Assembly: GCA_963556145.1 (NCBI GenBank)
Contig: OY744467.1
Span: forward strand, 5,022,001 to 5,086,000
Direction of reading: 5' to 3'
DNA from: Hygrocybe punicea
Taxonomy: Eukaryota; Basidiomycota; Agaricomycetes; Agaricales; Hygrophoraceae
Length of the DNA stretch: 64,000 nt
Within the stretch, counting starts at the first letter, position 1, and every line of letters starts with the position of its first letter. Shown here one piece after another: positions 30,743-46,946 of the stretch. The notes below the pieces were generated by a model. That model saw nothing but the letters and a program-made list of their open reading frames with translations, had not been told where the DNA came from and ran no database searches. The translations under genes and the position numbers were made by a program.

Positions 30743-33034
30743 ATGCGCATCGAGCTTCTCAACAAGCTCGCTCTATATTCTCTAACACATACTATTAGAA
30801 GCACGTTCGTTGATTTCTGCAAGAATCATTCTGGTGCCTGCATCTATCAAGAACAAGAAAACTGGTTGGACCAAATCTCTCGAATCCAAAAAATCTCTGC
30901 CAAGTATGTCCCCTGCGGATCCTGCGACCCTGAGCGCGTATATTCAGAGGCTTCATCCTGGGCCAACAACGGACTATATGCCGATCAGCTGCTGCTCCGC
31001 ATGTATGGTGCGCAGAGCGGCACTCCGCAGCTGGATAACCAGGATGTGGTGTACCTGGACGATGCGTGGATACGGGAGCATGTGGCGTGTGTGTCACAGG
31101 AGTGCATACTGTTTGATATGAGTGTGCGTGGGGGTGGGAGGCCGTCAAAAGATGTGACGCATGAAGAGGTTGTGGAGGCGTGTAGGGCGGCGTTGATGCA
31201 TGATTTTTTTAGGGACCTTCCGGAAGGTTACCTCACTCGGTTGGGTAATGGTGGCGATAGCCTGTCTGGTGGACAGATGCAGCGCTTGGCTATCGCTCGT
31301 GCTAAATTGCCCGATCCTACTGTTCTTATTCTAGGTGAGTTTTTTTTTTTCCTTTTCTTTTCTCATCAATTTTGCTCGAGACTTTTTATTGGTTAGATGA
31401 AGCGACGTCTGCGCTGGACGCAACGTCGCGCGTGCTGGTCTTTGAGGCTATCAAATGCTGGCAAGCCAACAAGACCACTATCGTTTTCACGCACAACCTT
31501 TCGCAGCACGACTCACAACTTTGTCTACGTCCTCAAGATCGGGAGCGTCGTGGATGGTGCGTTTCGGGCGATGATGCTGGCGCAGGCGACCACTCCGGGG
31601 CGACTGACATACCCACCATCAATGCGTTTGGTGGGATCGCCTTGAGCGTCGCAGCGCTGGACGGGGTCTTTTTGGGGGTCAAACACTTTGTGTTGGAGAT
31701 GGCTGCTATGAGCTGGGTGATGCATATCCGGAAGGTGTGTTACCAGCGCGTGCTGGCGCAGGATAAGCGGTGGTTCGACAAGAGCGAGAACAGCGCTATG
31801 CGTCCAGTGCAGGTGCTCGTGACGGACGGGGACGACGCTGGGTACTTGATTGCGGTTGTGCTGGGGCAGTGTTGCGTTGTGGGTGCGATGTTGGACGTGC
31901 TGCTTTGGGCACTTGTGAAGGGGTGGCAGTTGACGTTGGTTGCATTTGCGTTTGTGGTGTTTGCTGCTGCGATGGCGTTCCAGACGAGGTTGGTGGCGAG
32001 GTGTGAGTTGAGGAGGGGAACATGGGTAGGTCCTGCATTGTTGTTGTTAATGAAGGCGCTTTCTGATATTCGGGCTATTCGTTCCATGGCTTTTGAAAGC
32101 GTTTTTCGGAGTCAGTTTAATTTGGCTGCTAAGCGGGCGTTGGCGATGGGTGTACGAGGAGCCTTGGTTGAAGGGTCGACGCATGGTGTGGCGAGCGCTT
32201 TGATCTATGTTGCGGAAGCGATGTTGTTTTACGTTGGTGCGACGCATGTTGCCCGGGGCACGTATACTTATCTGCAGATGGTGGAGGTGTTGAATTTGGA
32301 GGTGTTCACTGTTACTATTGGGTCCCAGTTGTTGTCTTGCGGTATGTCTTTTTCCCCCCTGCTCTTTTTTTTTCCGAACCTGTTTTTGATTTTTTTTTGG
32401 TCAAGCTCAAAGATTGCTAAATCGGTTCAAGCCACGTGGGATTTCAACGGTTTTTTGATGCTCTCTGGAGACTGATGAATCCAAGAGGACTCTTCGACCT
32501 CCACCGACTGGCGCTGTCACTTTCAGTGAAGTCTCCTCGTATCCCGAGTGGCCTGATGCCCCCATTTTGAAGAACCTCTCCATGCACATGGCCAACGGCG
32601 AATGTGTTGCTATCGTGGGTTCGTCCGAGTCTGGAAAATCCACTGTGGCGGCGTTGTTGCAGCGATTGTATGAGCCAGACTCGGGTGGCATCTTCATTGG
32701 ACAATCGGAGCTCCGTCCGACGCAGGTGGATCGTCTGCGAGAACATGTGGCGGTTGTCAGCCAGCACCCGAATCTATTCGATGCGAGCATCTTGGAAGGC
32801 ATCGCCTACAGGAGCAAGGGTCTCTCCGAGCAGGATATCCGCCGGGCTGCCAAGGCTGTGAATGTTGATGAGTTTATCGAGGCTCTGCCGGAGGGATACG
32901 ATATGAAGGTCGGGGAGAATGCGTCGCTGATATCGGGTGGAGAGGCCCAGCGGATGCAGATTGCGCGAGCGCTGGCGATATCCGCGACCGTATCAGCGTT
33001 CCTATGGGAGCATTATATCTATCCCAGATCATGA
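30743..33034 (+). pseudogene. Truncated Ste6-like ABC transporter chimera
   Basis: About 30774-30985 is a copy of an exon of the unrelated gene at 49.1-50.5 kb (minus); the ABC part starts at LLLRMYGAQSG. It keeps the end of a first nucleotide-binding domain (signature LSGGQMQRLAIARA, Walker B/D-loop ILG|DEATSALDA split by the intron at 31335-31395), a membrane domain with the LAQDKRWFDKSENS and FQTRLVARCELR blocks, and a second nucleotide-binding domain (Walker A GSSESGKST, Q-loop VSQHPNLF, signature ISGGEAQRM). The first membrane domain, first Walker A and second Walker B are absent. Frames shift near 31510 and near 32475. The second Walker A has E in place of the usual second G. Full-length relatives would export lipopeptide pheromone or drugs. 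Not functional. Confidence 0.8.
30774..30985 (+). repeat. Duplicated segment A of the 49.1-50.5 kb gene
   Basis: This stretch, from ATATTCTCTAACACATACTA to the GATCAG just before the ABC part, matches the reverse complement of about 50135-50348 with roughly 85-90% identity. It includes the 3' end of an intron (CTATTAG) and the exon coding for the ASIKNKK/SAYIQRLHPGPT region. Small indels disturb its frame here. Confidence 0.85.
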
Positions 33035-36039: not shown

Positions 36040-36626
36040 CGCGAATTCGGGTTCTGTGTTTGCAGCTTGGAAGCGAAGATGTTATGTGTCGAGATCAAGA
36101 TCATTTTGTCCCCACTTGCTTTGTTATAATAAATCTTGCTTTGTTCGGGATCTGTATCCGAGCAAATCGCTCTGGCACAGACTTGATAGCCATGAGGCGG
36201 TGTCTGCCGTCGACGATGGAACAAAGAAGAGGTCCGAGGCTTTGGCGCCTTGAGGATCAATATCCTTCCCTGTATTCGACATGTGGATCCGGATCCGGAT
36301 GCGCAAGCGAAAGCTGCGCGCTGAAAGCTGACCAAGGCCGTAATTTATGTGAGCTATGATGGATGTACAATGACAATGTACAATTAGGATTTTGGATAGG
36401 TCGCATTACTCAAAAAAGTAGCTATCATATCCCGGGACGGCCAATCGTTCTCATATCTTGTTAGGATGGGAAATTTCTCTCTAGCCTGATCACCAAGTTA
36501 CGTCGAAACGTCCAACTAAGGAATCTCGGCTCACTCACTTCAATTTTTATTTTGTCAATGGTTGACAGTGGTTGTTTTGAAATAGGAGAACCACGTATTA
36601 GGGATCGGTTGTCAACGTAGTAGCGA
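36040..36626. other. Left flank of the LTR retrotransposon
   Basis: The interval upstream of the WD40 gene up to the 5' LTR holds no gene I can support. Long open frames at 36036-36335 (-) and 35916-36359 (+) overlap the WD40 promoter side and look like chance. The last four bases (GCGA, 36623-36626) are repeated just after the 3' LTR. Confidence 0.4.
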
Positions 36627-37420
36627 TGTAGAGGGTCCTCGACCCTCTGAGGCCGTAACATCGATATCTAGCGAATCTGCTCAAACCCAATGTCTCTAGC
36701 AATCTACGCTCGAACCCGACGTAACCCGATGCAACCCGATACATACCGACTAGCACGGCCGCTCATGTACCTGGTCGGTCTATCTCGTAAACTCACGGAA
36801 CTTCAAATATCAAAGATAGATCTCATCGGACTGGGATCCCGACATCGGACTTGCCTTATTCACGCCTAGCGTCTCCCTTATGGGGATATAGTAAAGTATA
36901 TTGCATCTTTTACGGTTTTTTATATCTTCCACCCATTTTCCCTGTCATCGTCGCCTCGCAACGCTCTTCCTACTTCCCCATTTTTATTCTCCTTTGTTTC
37001 CTCTCATCGGCCGAGGACTCTCGTCCGAATCTAGGTACAGAAATTTGTAGTATAAAAACGGTGCCCAAGTGCCGTCTCAAAATAAGAAACCAGTTCCCCC
37101 ATTTCCTCTCTCTGAGAATTAGTCTCTCAGTAAAATCCATCGCACACATTGCTCGTCGGATTCCTCGACGCTCTCCCCGTCGTTCTACCGCCTTTATCTC
37201 TATGTCCCTCGTGACCCGACACCCGACCCGCCGTACCCGACATCGTGGGCTTCGTTGGCTTCGACCGATCTCGATAGATTTCAGTAGTTTACTCGGCGGC
37301 TTCTTACCATTTATATCCTATCATTTTACTGAAGCTTGTTAGACTATTCCTAGTCACTTCTACGCTGACCCCACAGGCTTAGGATTATTATTCCGCAGCC
37401 ACCCCGACCTCGCCTTTACA
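36627..37420 (+). repeat. 5' LTR
   Basis: 794 bp, TG...CA ends. A TATAAAAA box lies at 37051-37058, about 370 bases before the LTR end, so the U3/R boundary is probably about 30 bases after it. The 5' part carries short repeats of an AACCCGA(C/T) unit near 36711-36745. An open frame inside the LTR (36851-37342) recurs in the 3' LTR and is not supported as a gene. Confidence 0.95.
37051..37058 (+). promoter_or_regulatory. TATA box of the LTR promoter
   Basis: TATAAAAA within the 5' LTR, repeated at about 46075 in the 3' LTR. It is the likely core promoter for the genomic transcript of the retrotransposon. Confidence 0.55.
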
Positions 37421-37421
37421 T

Positions 37422-37439
37422 CTGGAGCCCACCGCGAGG
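37422..37439 (+). other. Candidate primer-binding site
   Basis: TGGAGCCCACCGCGAGGA starts one to two bases after the 5' LTR. It begins with TGG, as expected for pairing with the CCA end of a tRNA. The complementary tRNA 3' end would read CCTCGCGGTGGGCTCCA. I cannot tell which tRNA that is. Confidence 0.55.
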
Positions 37440-37783
37440 AATAGTCTAGCACCACCATAGCTTCCTCTTCCCGTATCCCTCCCTCTGACCGTCGTCTTCG
37501 AGATCTTCCTTGAAGAACTCTTCAACAAGAACTCTCTTTAGCCACCTTCGACCCAACAATCGACGACGACTTCTTTCAGCTAGTACCCGACCACCTTGCT
37601 CGACATAACAATCTCCCGCTCGTCTCAGGGTCAAACACCCCCCTATATCTTTCATCCGACAGTCTCGAATCGGTCGATATACCGATAATTACCATTACAC
37701 CCGACTCATCCGATCTCAGTTCGACACCCGCATCGCCTACGTCCCCGACTTCGACCTCGTTAGAACCCCCATCCACGTCTTCG

Positions 37784-37880
37784 CTCTCGACATCGAAAAC
37801 TCCGTCATCGTCATCGTCTCCGTCTTCGCTCTCGACATCGAAAACTCCGTCATCGTCATCGTCCCCGTCTTCGTCTTCGT
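37784..37880. repeat. 45 bp direct repeat in the leader
   Basis: CTCTCGACATCGAAAACTCC begins at 37784 and again at 37829, each followed by GTCATCGTCATCGTC. The repeat lies before the first gag ATG but in a frame that is open into gag (reading serine-rich SKTPSSSSSP), so it may once have been coding. Confidence 0.7.
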
Positions 37881-37966
37881 CCACGCCGTCATCGTCCACG
37901 TTACCCGACCCGCTCATCGTACACCCAACAACCGCTTCATCGACATCTCAGCTCCTTCCACTCACA

Positions 37967-40225
37967 ATGACTTCGACCTCTGGATCTTCGACCGCTCCCC
38001 ACGTTACCGCTCCCCATGTTACTCCACGACAAATGCCTGCTCGCAGTCACTCCATGGCCCCGACCTTCAATGGGAACCCGCTCAATTTAAACCGCTTCTT
38101 CGAAGAAGTCGAGATACTTGCTGCCGATGCCGCTCTCGACGACGCAGGATGCATTAAGCATAGTCTGTGCTACGCGTCGCTTAGCGACTACGAGCTATGG
38201 GCCAGTTTACCTAGTGCGACCGGCGTCGATTATGCCGCATTCAAAAGGAGCGTACTCGTGCTATACCCGGGCACGGAAGACGATCACCGGTACACTATGG
38301 CAGATCTCGACCGTCTTACGCACACCCAAACCGCTTACGGTATCCGTACCCGCGCTGAACTTGGTGAATATTACCGCGAGTTCATCCGGATCTCAGGGTT
38401 TCTTCTAGACAAGGGTCGGATCTCTCCCCGAGAACGCAACATCACGTACGAGAACGGCTTCCATGTCGAGCTTAAAAAGGACATCAAAACCCGTCTGCAG
38501 TACCAAAAACCGAACCATTTCCATAGCGACCCTTACGACTTCCAGGACTTCCACAATTGCGCCCACTTCCTACTGGCCGGAACCGCGGCCGAACCGTCCA
38601 CCGTCTCTCGTCTATCGTCAACGTCGCCTGCCGCCATCCGGTACTCGACTCCAATAGAACCCGCCACCCGCTACCCGCCACCCGCTCGCTATGACCCGGT
38701 CATTCCTAAAGCGGAACCGGTCGAACCTAACGTATCCGACCTATTTCATCTCGTTTCGCAACAACTCGCTGTCCTCACGCAAGCCCTCACCGAACGCAAC
38801 AACCCCCCAAAGCCGTGTGCAAATAGGGCTGAGCCAACCACCACGGGACAGGGTTTCACCAATTTCAACTGCCTCTTTTGCGATGACCCGTTCCATCGTA
38901 TACGCGATTGTCCTATTTGTGAGCAGTACACTCGAGACGGGATATGCCGCAAGAATGAGCACGGCCACATCATATTGCCTAATGGAATGTATCTTCCAAA
39001 GGCTATCGTCGGCAAAAATATGAGGGAACGCTTCGACGCGTGGCACGCACAGAACCCCGGCAACTGCGCTCCTCCTGCCCGCAACCCCACAGAACCGTTC
39101 CAACGTGACCCGCCGCCTCATGTCAAAGCTAACTTCGTCTCCGCCGTCGAAGTACCCACCTACGAACCAGAGGTCACCACCGAGTACGCCGACATCTTTC
39201 AGTCCACGACGTCCGACATTGACGACGACAATGAACAAATCAAGGTTCTGGAAGCCGAAGTGCAGCGGCTTCGTAAACGGGTTAGATTTGACGGCGTAGA
39301 GATCCCCTCTAAAGCGAAAGGCAAGTCTAGAGAGACATATCCCAATCCGCCCGCCACTTCCACGTCCGTCCCCGCCGCGAAACCCGCCGAGAAAACGTCT
39401 ACCAGACCTGTCAACGAGCACCCGATCACCATTGTTCCACCTTCGAACACACGGCCGACCGAGCCGACCGCCTTCGTGCCGCGCACTCCCCAGAACCTTC
39501 CCGCATCGCACCCCCAGTACCGCTACCAAGCCCCCATTGAAGATCCCGGTATCGCCAAATCCGTCATCGACCGCGCGCTCGATTCTCAAGTCTGCATTTC
39601 GCAACGAGAACTTTTAGCCATGTCGTCTGACGCCCGCCGTCACATGAAGGACCTCACTACGTCGAAAAAGGTCACCGCCGAGAGTAACAACGTCGAGGTC
39701 TTCCATTTTCACGCACCCGAAATCCCCACTCGCGGCTGTCAACACTGTCAGGAAAACGTCCCGCTCGTCGTCGGCCGCGACTCAGTCCCTCTCCGTGCGG
39801 TCTACCCGCTCATCAACGGAAAATTCGTATTCGAGTGCGTCCTCGACAACGGTTCCATGATCATCGGCATGCGACGCGATATTTGGGAGAAACTCAGTTA
39901 CGGCCTCCAAAATATGAAGATGCGGATGCAGTCGGCAAATAAAAGCGACAACGACACCCTCGGCCGGATCGCCAACCTAAAATTCACTTTTGGCGACGTC
40001 GATCTTTTCCTCCAAGTCCAAGTCGTCGATGATGCCCCCTACGAGATCCTCATCGGCCGCCCGTTCTTCACGCTTTCCGAAGCCCTTACGAAGGATTATA
40101 AAAACGGAGAACAACAAGTCACGATCACGGACCCAAACACTGGTGCCGTCGTCACCTTGCCCACCATCGAGCACAACCAAAAGAACCGACGAGAGCGGTC
40201 CGACACCGGAAAACCGGATTTTTAG
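37967..40225 (+). CDS. Gag-protease polyprotein of the retrotransposon
   Basis: The 752-residue frame starts MTSTSGSSTAPHV. The gag core includes PTFNGNPLNLNRFFEEVEIL and FLLDKGRISPRER. A CCHC zinc knuckle, CLFCDDPFHRIRDC (C-X2-C-X4-H-X4-C), sits at residues 302-315. A coiled-coil-like stretch (NEQIKVLEAEVQRLRKRVRF) follows at about 420-440. The aspartic protease comes last: ECVLDNGSMI (residues about 623-632), then the hydrophobic FLQVQVVDDAPYEILIGRPF block, the family's ILGRPF-type motif. The catalytic motif is D-N-G-S in place of the usual D-S/T-G-S. The frame is open upstream of the ATG. It ends at TAG in GATTTTTAG, which overlaps the start of the pol frame. Confidence 0.9.
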   Translation: MTSTSGSSTAPHVTAPHVTPRQMPARSHSMAPTFNGNPLNLNRFFEEVEILAADAALDDAGCIKHSLCYASLSDYELWASLPSATGVDYAAFKRSVLVLYPGTEDDHRYTMADLDRLTHTQTAYGIRTRAELGEYYREFIRISGFLLDKGRISPRERNITYENGFHVELKKDIKTRLQYQKPNHFHSDPYDFQDFHNCAHFLLAGTAAEPSTVSRLSSTSPAAIRYSTPIEPATRYPPPARYDPVIPKAEPVEPNVSDLFHLVSQQLAVLTQALTERNNPPKPCANRAEPTTTGQGFTNFNCLFCDDPFHRIRDCPICEQYTRDGICRKNEHGHIILPNGMYLPKAIVGKNMRERFDAWHAQNPGNCAPPARNPTEPFQRDPPPHVKANFVSAVEVPTYEPEVTTEYADIFQSTTSDIDDDNEQIKVLEAEVQRLRKRVRFDGVEIPSKAKGKSRETYPNPPATSTSVPAAKPAEKTSTRPVNEHPITIVPPSNTRPTEPTAFVPRTPQNLPASHPQYRYQAPIEDPGIAKSVIDRALDSQVCISQRELLAMSSDARRHMKDLTTSKKVTAESNNVEVFHFHAPEIPTRGCQHCQENVPLVVGRDSVPLRAVYPLINGKFVFECVLDNGSMIIGMRRDIWEKLSYGLQNMKMRMQSANKSDNDTLGRIANLKFTFGDVDLFLQVQVVDDAPYEILIGRPFFTLSEALTKDYKNGEQQVTITDPNTGAVVTLPTIEHNQKNRRERSDTGKPDF
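40215..40225 (+). promoter_or_regulatory. Candidate -1 frameshift site between gag and pol
   Basis: The end of gag reads GAT TTT TAG. A slip of one base back at the five-T run gives GGA TTT TTA GAA, which is the pol frame and stays open for over 1,200 bases. The pol frame has no ATG until well inside, so pol must be made as a gag fusion by slippage or stop bypass. The A-site TTT can re-pair perfectly after the slip. I did not find an obvious downstream stem by eye. Confidence 0.5.
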
Positions 40226-43200
40226 AAGTCGAGGACCCAGAGATACCTCTCGGGAAGGACGCACCGGGAGATGAGAAGCCGCCACTCGAAAGCGACCACA
40301 CCTATACCACGAACTATGCTTCCCTTTTGCCGTTTCCCCTAGAAGAGGACTTATGTTTTTCTATCGATTTAGATTTCTCTTCGTCTCAGCCTCAGACTGC
40401 CGCCCAGTACATTTCATTGTTGACCGATGTACAAAATCAGCTACATACTACCGATACCCTTCCTTCGTCTTGTTCCGTCTCCGCTCCTGCGTCACCTATT
40501 TCTTCTTCGAATATTTGTAACAAAGCCTCTACTGAACACGCTACTTATATCTCGTATACCACCCCCCCTACCAGGGACCTAAAAGGAGTCGTTACCAAGA
40601 AAAAGTATAAGAAGGTAGCCGATCGTATCCGCCCAATTTCTACCACTCTCCCCGACGAATACCATATCATACGCGAGATCACCGGCGACCTGCTAGCCGA
40701 TTTACCCACGCTCCCGACTCACCCGCCTGACTTTACACCTGGCACCCGCTATACCCAGGAACGACACGACGCGATGCCAATGAACCCGGATGGATTCCTT
40801 TGGCCTGAGGAAGAAAAACTTGGCCACCATATCATCAAAACGCAAGAAGCCGCCTTCGCCTGGAACGAATCCGAGAAAGGCCAGTTCAATACGGACTACT
40901 TCCCGCCGATCCACATTCCCACCATACCGCACGACCCGTGGGTCCATCGCAATATCCCAATTCCACCCGGCATCCTTAACGAAGTCATCGGCATCATCAA
41001 AGACAAAATTAACGCCGGTACCTATGAACCCTCGAATTCGTCATACCGCTCCCGCTGGTTCTGCGTTTTGAAAAAGGATGGGAAGTCTCTTCGAATCGTC
41101 CACGATCTACAGCCGCTTAACGCCGTCACTATCCGCGATCCCGCCGTACCGCCCATGACCGAGCACTTGGCCGAGGCCTTTGGCGGCCACTCTTGCTACG
41201 CTTCCTTTGACCTCTTCGTCTCTTTCGACCAACGCCTCGTCCACCCCTCGTCTCGGGACTATATGACCTTTCAGTCTCCACTCGGAATGCTTCGACTTAC
41301 GTGGATTGCTATGGGATACACAAATTCCCCGCAGATCCTACACGGTGACTCCACGTACATCCTCCGTGACGAAATCCCTCATCTTGCCGTTCCGTATATG
41401 GACGATATTCCCGTCAAAGGGCCTCCAACCCGCTACGAGCAACCCGACGGTACCTACGAGACTATACCCGAGAACCCGGCAATTTGACGTTTCATTTGGG
41501 AGCACTTCCAAGGTGTCAACCGCGTCATTCAGCGTTTCCGCTATGTCGGCGGTACCTTCAACGGCAAAAAACTCGAGTTGTGTCGACCCTCAGTCATCGT
41601 TGTTGGCCACCGATGCACATACGAAGGAAGAGTAGCCGACGACTCCAAAGTACAGAAGATTCGCGATTGGCCACTGCCGACCAACCTCACTGAAGTTCGC
41701 GCCTTTCTCGGTATCTGCGGCGTCTTGCATATTGTTATCAAGGACTTCTCGCTCCACTCCCGACCCCTCGTCCATCTTACCCGCAAAGGTATACCCTTCG
41801 AATTTGGTGAAGAAGAAGAGACCGCCGTCGACTACCTCAAAAACGCCGTCATTACGTCGCCAGCGCTGCGCGCTATCGACTACACGTGTGAATGGGAAGT
41901 GATTCTCGCCGTCGATTCATCCGTTCTTGGAGTTGGCTTCGTTCTTATGCAAATCCGCGCCGACGGAAAGCGCTATCTGAATCGTTTTGGTTCAATATCG
42001 TGGAACGAACGCGAAGCCCGATACACTCAGTCCAAGCTCGAGCTTTACGGTCTCTTCAGGGCCCTCCGTGCCTATCGGATTTTCATTATCGGCGTCTGCA
42101 ACCTCACCGTTGAAGTCGACGCGAAGTACATAAAAGGGATGCTCAACAACCCTGACATTCAGCCCAATGCTACGATTAACCGATGGATAGCCGGCGTGCT
42201 CTTATTTGACTTTAGACTCGTTCACGTACCCGCTTCCGCACACGGTGCACCCGACAGACTCTCCCGACGTCCCCGCGCTGCAGAAGACCCCGAGGAGATC
42301 AACGACTCCGACGATTGGCTCGACCACTCCTACGGTTTCTTTATGGAAGTCATCAACTACCGACCCGTCCCCATACCGTCTAAGCCGATTGCCGTATGCG
42401 GCCGCTGCCGTGCCACAGCCGACCGACTCCAAGAATTACCGGCCGTCCTCGTCTACACAAATCAGGAAGCCGTTTCTGACATACCGCGATCCGATAAAGC
42501 CCACACGGCCGACGCTCGTCTTGCCCTCGTCGAGATCTGGTTACCAGATCTAACCCGACCCGCGAACTTCATGGACGAAGAATACCGTCTGTTCTTACGA
42601 TACGCCCTTGAATTCTTCGTCACCGATAACAAGCTTTGGCGCAAAGACCGTCACGGAAAACACAAACTTGTCATACCGCCCGACCGCCGGCTTCAGTTAC
42701 TCAAAGACGCTCACGACTCTCTTGGCCACAAAGGTATATTCTCCGTCCGCGCTCGGCTACTCGATCGTTTCTGGTGGCCGCACCTCGACCACGACGTTAA
42801 GTGGTACGTCCAGTCTTGCCATCAGTGCCAAGTACGGCGAATGCGTTATCATCACATTCCGCCCACCGTCGCTACACCAGCCTCACTATTTCGTAAAGCG
42901 TATGTCGACACAATGTTTATGCCACGATCCGGCGGCTATCGATACATCGTCCAAGCCCGTTGCTCCCTGTCCGCCTACCCTGAGTTCCGCATGTTACGCC
43001 GCGAGACCGGCTCCACCATCGGCACGTTCTTGTTCGAAGACATCTTATGCCGTTGGGGCGCTCTCGAAGAAATCATCACCGACAACGGCAAGCCATTCGT
43101 AGAAGCGCTCGACTATCTCGCCTCCCGCTACGGTATCCGGCACATCCGCATTTCGCCCTATAACTCACAAGCGAACGGACCCGTTGAGCGTCGCCACCTA

Positions 43201-43875
43201 GATGTCCGGGAGGCCATTATGAAAAGTTGTGACGGAGATGAAAAGAAATGGCACACCGTAACCCACTCCGTATTTTGGGCCGAACGGGTCACGACACACA
43301 AAAGCCTCGGATACTCGTCCTACTACATCGCACACGGAGTAGAACCGCTTTTTCCATTCGATTTTGCCGAAGCTACGTACATGGTTCCGATGCAAGATAC
43401 GATGTCTACGACCGACCTCATAGTCATCCGCGCCCGACAACTTCGTAAACGAGAAGCCGACCTCGATCGGGTCAAAGAAAAGCTTACCAAATCTCGGCTC
43501 GTGTCCGCCCGGCAATTCGAGCAGAAATACACCAACACGATCAAAGTTTACGACTTCGAACCCGGTAACCTCGTTCTCGTCCGAAATTCACGTATCGAAA
43601 TGTCTCTCGATCGTAAAGCAAAACCGCGGTACTTTGGACCCATGGTTGTCGTCAGGAAAACAGAAGGCGGATCCTACATACTCGCCGAACTCAATGGTGC
43701 GGTTTCTAAATCTCGATTTGCCGCTTTCTGAGTCGTACCCTACCACGCCCGCTCAAAAATATCGATACCGTTGGACGACTTCTTACAATACCCCGATGCC
43801 GACGATACCGATTCAAACGATCTTGATGATCCGACGTACCCGCCCTCTATAGACTCCTCACCCGACGACGATTAA
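40220..43875 (+). pseudogene. Pol (RT-RNase H-integrase), two nonsense codons
   Basis: Reverse transcriptase shows KKDGKSLRIVHDLQPLNAVT, SCYASFDLFVSFDQR and the catalytic VPYMDDIPVKGP. RNase H shows AVDSSVLGVGFVL, TQSKLELYGLFRALRAY and VEVDAKYIKGMLNNP. Integrase shows the HHCC finger (HDSLGHKG...CHQCQ) and catalytic D (YVDTMFM), D (IITDNGKPF) and E (GPVERRH). The C-terminus NLVLVRNSR...PRYFGPMVVVR fits a GPY/F module. TGA at 41485-41487 interrupts after PAI where R precedes FIWEHFQG. TGA at 43729-43731 interrupts after RFAAF where R precedes VVPYHARSK. With both as CGA the frame would run to TAA at 43873-43875. All catalytic residues are present. Confidence 0.92.
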
Positions 43876-44080
43876 GCATTTCGTTTATATTCTGTCCACG
43901 TTATACCCCCATTTTATTTAGTTCCTCTTAGTTTTCTAACGATATGACGAATGATGCGAATAGTCCTATGTCTTCGGGAGCCGATCGGCTTTCCTTAGCT
44001 GGGTGAACAAGCTGACACGTCTTTTATGTACACGATATTTTTTATATATATACACAACGGGCTTGTTATTTTTGTCTATC

Positions 44081-45487
44081 TTAGAGGCGGCCGGTCTCGT
44101 AATCCCGCTTCAACATCGCCAACCTTGAGGTCGACCGTTCGAGATCGACGCGAAGCCGCTGGAACTCTTGACCGAAGTGGACGAGGTGACGGTTGACGTT
44201 GGTGCCCAGGGCTCCCAGCTCCTCCGTAAGGACCGCTAGCCGCGCCGACACTTGCTCGTAATTCTCCATCGTCAAAAAGAACGGGTTTGCTGCCGAGGCC
44301 GCCCTAAGCCTTTTCGTCGGCCGCTCTTCCTCCGACTCCTCCTCGTCTTCGTCATCGTCCTCGACCGACTCCACGTCCTCGACCCGCGGTTTGCTCGTTG
44401 AGGCCCGGGCAGGCCTACTGCGGATGGGCTTTGTCGTGAACGACAACGGCTTTCTCGTGCCGACCGCGACCTCTTTGCCCTTTCCGGTATCCACCTTACG
44501 CCGACCCCCGCCCGTCCGGTGTGTAGCGTTAGTACATCTTTTCTTCAGCCTCCGGCATTGTTCGCACACGTAGCCCGTGACACCTCGACACGCCTCTTGA
44601 GCCTTGACGCAGTTGGTGCAGGGTTGTAGGGGAAACGGCCCGGTGAACTGTTACCAGGATCAGTGACTAAAGAACAAATGAACCGACACAAGAACTCACC
44701 GTCGTACCAGCCAGGTCTCTGGTCTCTACGCCCGGCGTATCTATGTCTTCTACATCGGCCGGTGTCTCTGGTGCCGGGTCGACGGGGCCTTCCTCTGGCT
44801 CAACTGCAGCTTCGCCTTCCGGAATCGACTCAGTCCTTGGTTCACCCGCGACCGATGCGTTTGCTTCAGCTCGCCGTTCTTCGCTGAGCCACTGCCGATA
44901 CGCGGCTCCATCCCTTTCAACCCGGTCCGCTTCTTGATTCCAGTGCTGCTCGTGTTGTTCTATTCTAAGCCGCTCCCGCCTTTCCTCTGCTGCCTTTCGC
45001 CTTTTCTCCGCCTCCGCTCGTGCATTTGCCTCTGCCATCTGTCTGGCCTCCTCTTCCCGCGTAGCCGCTTCTTCATCCGCCCGCCGTCTGACTTCTTCCT
45101 TTTCATGCCTCTCTCGGTCCGCCGCTTCTTTCAGCCACTCTTCGACATCGTTGGTGTACGATTGGCGGTCGGCCCATAACAGTGGCATTACTGGCCTTGT
45201 ACCACCAGCTCAGAGTTCCGCGACGATTCCATTATAAGCACGCTGGCAGGACGACATGAGCTATCTTAGGACACGCGTAGTCAATCGAGAAAACTCACCA
45301 GCGCTTTCTTGCGGCCGCTCAACCATTGTTGGGCCATCCCCTTGTTGCCGTCCACCATCGTTACGAGATCGTCGCTATGAAACACGGTGACCGCGTTGAC
45401 GGCCTCTTCGTAGTCCGCCCGGACATCGGGTTCGATGCTTTCGACGAAGGCGAGGAAATTGTTGTAGACTTGGGACATTGTGAACAT
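44081..45487 (-). CDS. Antisense Zn(II)2Cys6 coiled-coil protein gene inside the retrotransposon
   Basis: The gene lies entirely between pol and the 3' LTR, on the opposite strand. Exons are 45487-45299, 45242-44700 and 44647-44081; introns of 56 and 52 bp have GTGAGT donors and CAG acceptors, and all phases are zero. The product is 432 residues. Residues 1-63 (MFTMSQVYNNFLAFVESIEP...) are acidic. Residues about 99-175 are a long E/R/A-rich coiled coil (RRRADEEAATREEEARQMAE). Residues 254-282 read CTNC, six residues, C, seven residues, CEQC, six residues, C: the pattern C-X2-C-X6-C-X7-C-X2-C-X6-C of fungal zinc-cluster DNA-binding domains, with basic RRLKKR. An acidic run (EDVESVEDDDEDEEESEEE) and a second helical region (YEQVSARLAVLTEELGAL) follow. 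Codon 74 is TGA (45210-45212) where CGA fits. A DNA-binding or regulatory role is inferred. Confidence 0.75.
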
Positions 45488-45650
45488 GTGATGGTGTAGA
45501 GGAAAGGTCGGATCAACAAACGAGATTTATTTTTATTTTTTTTACTTTGCCGTTGTTTGGCCGCTCACGTGATTGGCCACATTCGCGACCCGCATTTGGA
45601 GACCCCATATTCTCGACCACGGATGGTCTCTATTAGAAGACCCAAGGAGA

Positions 45651-46444
45651 TGTAGAGGGTCCTCGACCCTCTGAGGCCGTAACATCGATATCTAGCGAAT
45701 CCGCTCGAACCCGACGTCTCTAGCAATCTATGCTCGAACCCGACGTAACCCGACGCAACCCGATGCATACCGACTAGCACGGCCGCTCACGTACCTGGTC
45801 GGTCTATCTCGTAAACTCACGGAACTTCAAATATCAAAGATAGATCTCATCGGACTGGGATCCCGACATTGGACTTGCCTTATTCACGCCTAGCGTCTCC
45901 CTTATGGGGATATAGTAAAGTATATTGCATCTTTTACGGTTTTTTATATCTTCCACCCATTTTCCCTGTCATCGTCGCCTCGCAACGCTCTTCCTACTTC
46001 CCCATTTTTATTCTCCTTTGTTTCCTCTCATCGGCCGAGGACTCTCGTCCGAATCTAGGTACAGAAATTTGTAGTATAAAAACGGTGCCCAAGGGCCGTC
46101 TCAAAATAAGAAACCAGTTCCCCCATTTCCTCTCTCTGAGAATTAGTCTCTCAGTAAAATCCATCGCACACATTGCTCGTCGGATTCCTCGACGCTCTCC
46201 CCGTCGTTCTACCGCCTTTATCTCTATGTCCCTCGTGACCCGACACCCGACCCGCCGTACCCGACATCGTGGGCTTCGTTGGCTTCGACCGATCTCGATA
46301 GATTTCAGTAGTTTACTCGGCGGCTTCTTACCATTTATATCCTATCATTTTACTGAAGCTTGTTAGACTATTCCTAGTCACTTCTACGCTGACCCCACAG
46401 GCTTAGGATTATTATTCTGCAGCCACCCCGACCTCGCCTTTACA
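45651..46444 (+). repeat. 3' LTR
   Basis: 794 bp, same length as the 5' LTR. I count about 11 differences: nine are C/T or G/A changes at CpG sites, one is a non-CpG transition (GATAC/GATGC) and one is a transversion (AAGTGCC/AAGGGCC). Confidence 0.95.
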
Positions 46445-46946
46445 GCGAATTCGAGCTTGGATAAATTTCTGTTATCGTGAAGTTGATGGCGGCTTCCGAA
46501 ACCTGGGTACATCACCTGTAGACTCAAATAGACGTCTGGATTCCAATCGTTGAGAACTGCTTTTAAGCTGTAGCCTCCACGACTCAAGCATCCCACTTGC
46601 CCACGGGGCTTGGGAATGATTTTTCTAATCACGTCATCTCTGCGGTCGTCTATTTTTCGGGCACCAGTAGAAAGATGATCTCGCGATTTAGACCAACCGC
46701 TCACCATCACTGTTATCTTGCGGACCTGTGCAACTAAAGGACACAGGGAAAACCGTTCGGGTAATGACTGGGGTGCGATCCAGGCTCATAGGATATACAG
46801 TTCTCAGGGAGTGCATTCGAGCGAGATTCATTTACAGTCCGTCGAAATTGGACTAGTTTGTGTGGGATTTAGACCGAGATGTGACAATAGGTAATGCAAG
46901 AACTCACCCTGAAAATACAGGTTGAAAGAAACAAAGGTTCAAGTCA
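46445..46946. other. Third duplicated segment, right flank of the retrotransposon
   Basis: About 46500-46765 is homologous, in reverse complement, to 33630-33850. On the minus strand it reads GVREVGCLSRGGYSLKAVLN-like peptide and DWNPDVYLSLQVMY. It is presumably coding or formerly coding sequence of a duplicated neighbour gene. I see no complete gene. Confidence 0.5.

Follow-up and report, generated by a model that had tools for sequence, protein, structure and literature searches.

The locus considered here raises two questions, namely how a gene with introns can be carried by an LTR retrotransposon on the strand opposite to gag-pol, and what such a gene might do for the element that carries it. 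It lies in a stretch of 64,000 nt of the Hygrocybe punicea genome (contig OY744467.1, positions 5,022,001 to 5,086,000; hereafter the window), the surrounding genome comprising 92.2 Mb in 42 contigs. The element is likely a fungal retrotransposon of the Ty3/Gypsy type, having two TG...CA LTRs (with 11 differences between them, nine at CpG), a target-site duplication, and a last pol ORF in which RNase H (77–205 in the Pfam scan) precedes the integrase, represented by H2C2 (366–421) and rve (442–530, below cut-off). No chromodomain was listed in the same scan. A gene with three exons and a pair of short introns occupies the minus strand in the interval from pol to the 3' LTR (Table 1). Elsewhere in the window, at 30743–32475, two plus-strand ORFs carry ABC transporter domains (ATPase and membrane), of which the ATPase ORF comes first.

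Table 1. Features of the retrotransposon and its antisense gene, in window coordinates.
Feature	Position	Strand	Remarks
Element	36627–46444	gag-pol on +	Ty3/Gypsy-type LTR retrotransposon
Target-site duplication GCGA	left 36623–36626, right 46445–46448		flanks of both LTRs
5' LTR	36627–37420	+	794 nt, TG...CA
gag-like ORF with DUF4100	37967–40225	+	36.2 bits (cut-off 27.9)
pol	40327–43731	+	two ORFs in the window copy: 40327–41487, 41578–43731
Exon 3	44081–44647	-	zinc cluster (predicted), acidic linker, C-terminal helix, stop
C-terminal long helix	44093–44269	-	exon 3 residues 127–185, AlphaFold2 high confidence
Six-cysteine zinc-cluster-like domain	44534–44620	-	halves in swapped order
Intron 2	44648–44699	-	GT-AG, phase 0, 52 nt
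Exon 2	44700–45242	-	segment rich in Glu, Arg and Ala; the window copy has a stop at codon 74
Intron 1	45243–45298	-	GT-AG, phase 0, 56 nt in the window copy and 55 nt in many others
Exon 1	45299–45478	-	from the conserved start codon; ATG in 40/40 copies
Antisense promoter-like CCAAT + CACGTG	45566–45576	-	98 nt (CCAAT) and 93 nt (CACGTG) before the start codon
3' LTR	45651–46444	+	794 nt, TG...CA
CCCGA/CCGAC array with 10-bp tandem unit	45708–45774	+	candidate binding sites
Second CCCGAC cluster in LTR	46239–46266	+	candidate

The initial annotation placed the exons at 45487–45299, 45242–44700 and 44647–44081 on the minus strand, with two GT-AG introns, and regarded the frame as intact apart from one stop; both points were borne out, the window copy having a single in-frame stop at codon 74. 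Its protein of 432 residues has to be revised, as the first ATG is found in one of 40 copies (that of the window), the others having ACG (38) or ACA (one). Since the ATG at codon 4 (45478–45476) is kept in all 40, the protein is 429 residues long. The copies compared were not random samples: the 40 close copies are those that match the window best in DNA sequence, and eight further copies come from the low end of the list of exon 3 matches. Exon sequence amounts to exactly 1299 nt in 39 of the 40 (L022 is shorter by 11 nt), intron 1 differs in length among them, and GT-AG occurs at both introns in 48/48 copies. From the conserved start the frame is open in 30 of the 48, with 429 codons in 29 and 384 in one. 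Mean pairwise divergence among the 40 is 0.054 and 0.053 for the introns and 0.036, 0.028 and 0.029 for the exons. This is not the pattern of chance, because the exons total 1299 nt in 39/40, GT-AG is present in 40/40, and the introns diverge about 1.5–1.9 times as much as the exons. A chance ORF was ruled out on this conservation of exons and introns, together with the in-frame omega and the retained cysteines described below. Some caution is needed against the divergence measure alone, since the spacer after pol (0.024) diverges no faster than the exons; the corresponding values for the spacer before the LTR and the end of pol are 0.033 and 0.027.

The gene is also found in more distant relatives. 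Seven diverged loci, L063–L069, were found through another diverged locus, L059, and are 67–78% identical in DNA to the window gene in the parts that align. By eye, the borders of intron 1 are legible in all eight diverged loci, with a branch-like CTAAC or CTAAT near the acceptor, and the donor GT of intron 2 is present in the seven that cover it, L066 having a long insertion. From these sequence features the gene is predicted to be spliced. The antisense location would then account for the survival of both introns: in the known replication cycle of LTR elements the template for reverse transcription is the sense genomic RNA, which would hold only their complements and so would not be spliced at these sites; the retention of the introns in the diverged subfamilies strengthens the fit. 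Antisense mRNA would be driven by a promoter in the approximately 170 nt between the start codon and the LTR. In this stretch CCAAT is present in 40/40 copies and CACGTG and a pyrimidine-rich leader each in 36/40, while an A/T-rich promoter-like stretch lying between them is variable and exact in 4/40. CACGTG recurs 106–108 nt upstream of the start in four of six diverged loci (93 nt in the window), and CCAAT was found upstream of the start in none of the six.

The initial annotation suggested asking whether homologues lie antisense between pol and the LTR in other copies, and such homologues were found. Exon 3 has at least 150 matches in the genome at 92–100% identity (150 were scored of 484 candidates). 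An LTR, or at least a portion of one, adjoins the gene in 39/39 copies examined, less completely in L011, L019 and L039, and 35 of the 39 include the full-length LTR in one alignment. Loci encoding DUF4100 were split at 34 bits, a cut of our own, into a higher-scoring group 1, which includes the window family, and a lower-scoring group 2. Among the matches listed, at least 55 of the 57 group-1 loci are followed on the other strand by the antisense exon, and for the two others the exon may simply be missing from those matches. The distance to the exon is 4.97–5.12 kb at 49 loci, 6.2–7.0 kb at four, and 11.6–12.1 kb at two where the exon of a neighbouring element may have been counted. Group 2 (L050 and 41 other loci), a related Gypsy group with several very long ORFs, has the exon downstream at 0/42 loci among the matches listed, and in one of its elements, L050, no antisense ORF reaches 80 aa in the 882 bp after pol. 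Gain or loss of the gene in the lineage could therefore be dated. In six of the eight diverged loci the gene adjoins sequence related to the spacer and LTR (78–87% identity), which extends into the LTR in five and is limited to the spacer in L064; the L059 piece is too short to judge. Three of four flanks of diverged loci, one of them rearranged, have pol on the opposite strand. The gene occupies the strand opposite to pol, in the gap that separates pol from the 3' LTR, and most copies of the family carry it. L059 itself (C39:5378960-5380480) is a mosaic, exon 1 being close to L063 and exon 3 to the window family, as is to be expected if lineages of the element have recombined.

The introns point to an origin in genomic DNA at some stage, and it could be supposed that a fragment of a host gene was recently captured by a few copies. 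This is scarcely credible in view of the diverged subfamilies, which differ at 0.41–0.59 of non-CpG synonymous sites, and of the presence of the exon at 55/57 group-1 loci among the matches listed; a recent capture confined to few copies is refuted by both. An ancient capture may have taken place. A protein search for homologues outside this genome scored 7,994 candidates, none with an E value of 0.01 or better, in a collection that may be poor in fungi, and none of 382 pattern matches in IMG/VR was confirmed.

The pattern of substitutions agrees with a coding sequence, and a comparison of dN/dS among copies, suggested at the outset, gave values of omega well below 1 between subfamilies. With CpG sites excluded, omega was 0.35–0.37 when L059 was compared with four copies (p 2e-8 to 2e-7) and 0.15–0.42 over all eight pairs (each p < 1e-3), and in eight deeper pairs it was 0.34–0.50 as ratios of proportions (p 8e-6 to 8e-15); these binomial p values take sites as independent, and the pairs have shared history. 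For the pair L059/L012 only, omega was 2.30 and 2.34 in the two wrong forward frames and 1.68 in a reverse frame. Plain omega, with CpG sites kept, was 0.24–0.28 for L059 against seven copies and 0.15–0.25 for the window against L063–L069, where synonymous sites are near saturation. Among close copies (39 used, L022 being left out) the ratio of nonsynonymous to synonymous changes was 0.71 of a CpG-aware expectation for singletons, 0.79 for changes in two to three copies, and 0.60 for those in four or more, so that selection is visible mainly between subfamilies: the close-copy signal is weak, CpG transitions swamping the data, and the signal between subfamilies is clear. It could be argued that the antisense RNA alone acts, by siRNA or interference, with an incidental open frame, as such an RNA would pair with the genomic RNA. 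We regard this as highly unlikely and rejected it, as omega is 0.15–0.42 in frame against 2.3 in wrong frames, and the cysteine codons and intron borders are kept. The exon–intron structure across subfamilies and the selection on the frame argue, by sequence evolution, for a protein-coding gene of the element family. The view that it is a genuine passenger gene replicated with the element is supported by the homologues in other copies and by omega below 1 between subfamilies.

The predicted protein was at first said to carry a perfect zinc cluster. The spacing C-X2-C-X6-C-X7-C-X2-C-X6-C is indeed present; the Pfam score is below cut-off and the two halves are swapped. As in the fungal Zn2Cys6 family (PF00172), there are six cysteines in two C-X2-C-X6-C units with a basic stretch in one, but the family has the basic Cys3 half first, and the first half of the Pfam Zn_clus model aligns to the second Cys3 unit of the antisense protein. 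Exon 3 scores 15.2 bits and a segment of 48 residues 20.7, against a cut-off of 21, because the usual first half stands second. When the halves were swapped back, with linkers shortened by hand, the segment scored 27.5 bits against 20.7 as found, and a canonical cluster from the same genome fell from 22.2 to 14.3 bits once its own halves were swapped. Four hand-made shuffles gave no Zn_clus match, and six scripted ones gave one match of 12 bits and five none. The swap scores and controls together mark the domain as zinc-cluster-like with halves swapped, outside the formal family test. All six cysteines are intact in 46/48 copies and are also present in the diverged L063, L064, L065 and L068, with stops inside the segment in L065 and L068; L066 lacks one of the four cysteines covered, and L067 has lost the second half. 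Together the two Cys3 units are predicted to make up a Zn2Cys6-type zinc cluster whose halves have changed places. AlphaFold2, given exon 3 alone, placed a short helix over each of the two Cys3 units with low confidence; a structure search with this segment returned no Zn2Cys6 match, which for a model of low confidence is silent on the fold. A separate repeated gene with a Zn_clus domain in canonical order was seen in L048 and L049 (at about 2008 and 1421, plus strand); three loci have 285-aa ORFs with nearly equal scores, and it may be another mobile or duplicated gene. It was set aside, its halves being in the normal order. Genes in L060–L062 also resemble the canonical type and, by eye, have an intron between the halves.

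Two coiled coils had been proposed for the protein. The C-terminal one is supported by a long predicted helix, with pLDDT values of 89–98 per ten residues from residue 131 (64 in the preceding block), and the one in exon 2 is represented by weak coiled-coil matches below the Pfam cut-off. The model suggests that the C-terminal helix is a dimerisation coiled coil. A PDB sequence search with exon 3 gave three matches, none of them a zinc-cluster chain, the best being an ATPase inhibitor matched through the C-terminal helix (E 0.0087).

If the protein binds DNA, the LTR offers candidate sites. Zn2Cys6 proteins favour CGG/CCG triplets, and CCCGAC occurs eight times in the 794-nt LTR, in a single orientation and in part within a 10-bp tandem array, a count reached in 0/2000 first-order Markov simulations. 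CCGAC is abundant in the element interior as well, its density per kb being 13.9 in the LTR, 6.1 in the interior and 1.4 elsewhere in the window. In 37 LTRs the stretch with the 10-bp unit (45695–45789 in the window) has a length of 85 nt in six, 95 nt in 30 and 105 nt in one, and the unit is recognisable in the LTR of the diverged L065. CCCGAC is thus put forward, from its sequence context, as a candidate binding site. The fraction of CpGs intact is 0.904 inside CCGA motifs against 0.899 for other LTR CpGs, so the motif CpGs decay like the others and there is no sign of selection on the motif by this test. CpG transitions make up 172/316 singleton changes and 183/211 changes common to two or three copies (39 copies, 43100–45650), and as the variation consists mostly of such transitions, the family is probably DNA-methylated.

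Altogether, we favour, with a probability of roughly 0.6, the reading that the locus holds a protein-coding gene belonging to a Ty3/Gypsy-type family, antisense between pol and the 3' LTR and predicted to be spliced, which likely encodes a dimeric DNA-binding regulator of the element's own LTR. The C-terminal helix would pair two subunits, and the protein would enter the nucleus and bind the CCCGAC array, where it would tune sense transcription or counter silencing; it may activate, repress or protect. The regulatory role is an inference. A fuller version, in which the element has its own spliced antisense transcription factor whose permuted zinc cluster recognises the 10-bp CCCGAC array and which drives the element or protects it against host CpG methylation, a kind not described for fungi, is tentative, its chances being well short of even.

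Three more specific roles can be weighed against the same evidence. Binding of the protein to the CpG-containing LTR repeats could remove or block DNA methylation, as the VANC proteins of Arabidopsis, termed sequence-specific anti-silencing proteins, are reported to counteract silencing of VANDAL elements (PMC5735166, PMC10398659). The CpG-dominated variation of a probably methylated family agrees with this, as does a candidate site that contains a CpG and sits in a tandem array; the idea is rather doubtful. VANDAL is another kind of element, and the likeness, that of a protein which an element encodes and which acts sequence-specifically on that element, is hypothetical. Similarly doubtful is a brake on sense transcription that limits copy number or host damage, modelled on HBZ of HTLV-1, a bZIP factor whose antisense transcript starts in the 3' LTR and which antagonises sense activation (PMC3736048, PMC3185765, PMC5797633). 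Both would be retroelement factors encoded in antisense from the 3' end, of DNA-binding type and with a coiled coil; HBZ is a bZIP protein of a retrovirus, so this is an analogy only, and a self-limiting factor would be harder to select for in a multicopy element with at least 150 copies. The third role, that of a helper that guides the pre-integration complex or binds nucleic acid for packaging, with no part in transcription, would suit the linkage of the gene to one gag group and a last pol ORF with no chromodomain listed, but nothing positive was found for it and the LTR motifs would need another reason, which makes it quite unlikely.

Among known systems the closest in layout are the antisense extra ORFs of plant LTR elements, which lie between pol and the 3' LTR and whose functions are termed unknown (PMC7264820). 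Grande gene23, RIRE2 and Retand TRP28 share the position, orientation and presence in most copies, and for some plant antisense ORFs a nuclear location or DNA binding has been reported or predicted (PMC7264820, PMC11963269), TRP28 being thought to bind DNA (PMC11963269). They differ in having another domain, and the word intron does not appear in the main texts of these two papers. The initial annotation knew of no fungal counterpart with a zinc cluster. An antisense extra gene as such had been recorded in a fungus: the Gypsy element Boty of Botrytis and Sclerotinia is described as having an antisense extra gene, brtn (PMC7264820, PMC8365987, PMC5987419, PMC4227169), which by description is alike in being the antisense extra gene of a fungal Gypsy element, whereas the pol of Boty has a chromodomain (PMC4227169); among the titles and abstract beginnings of the open-licence literature searched, none was found to describe an antisense gene with a zinc cluster or with introns in a fungal LTR element. 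Among antisense extra genes, what seems new here is the pair of introns and the zinc cluster with swapped halves. The gene illustrates a clean route by which a retroelement can retain introns, and a cluster arranged in this way would bear on the evolution of that domain. With a domain of DNA-binding type, a candidate LTR array that varies in length, 30/48 open copies and diverged subfamilies at hand, it makes the function of antisense extra genes directly testable.
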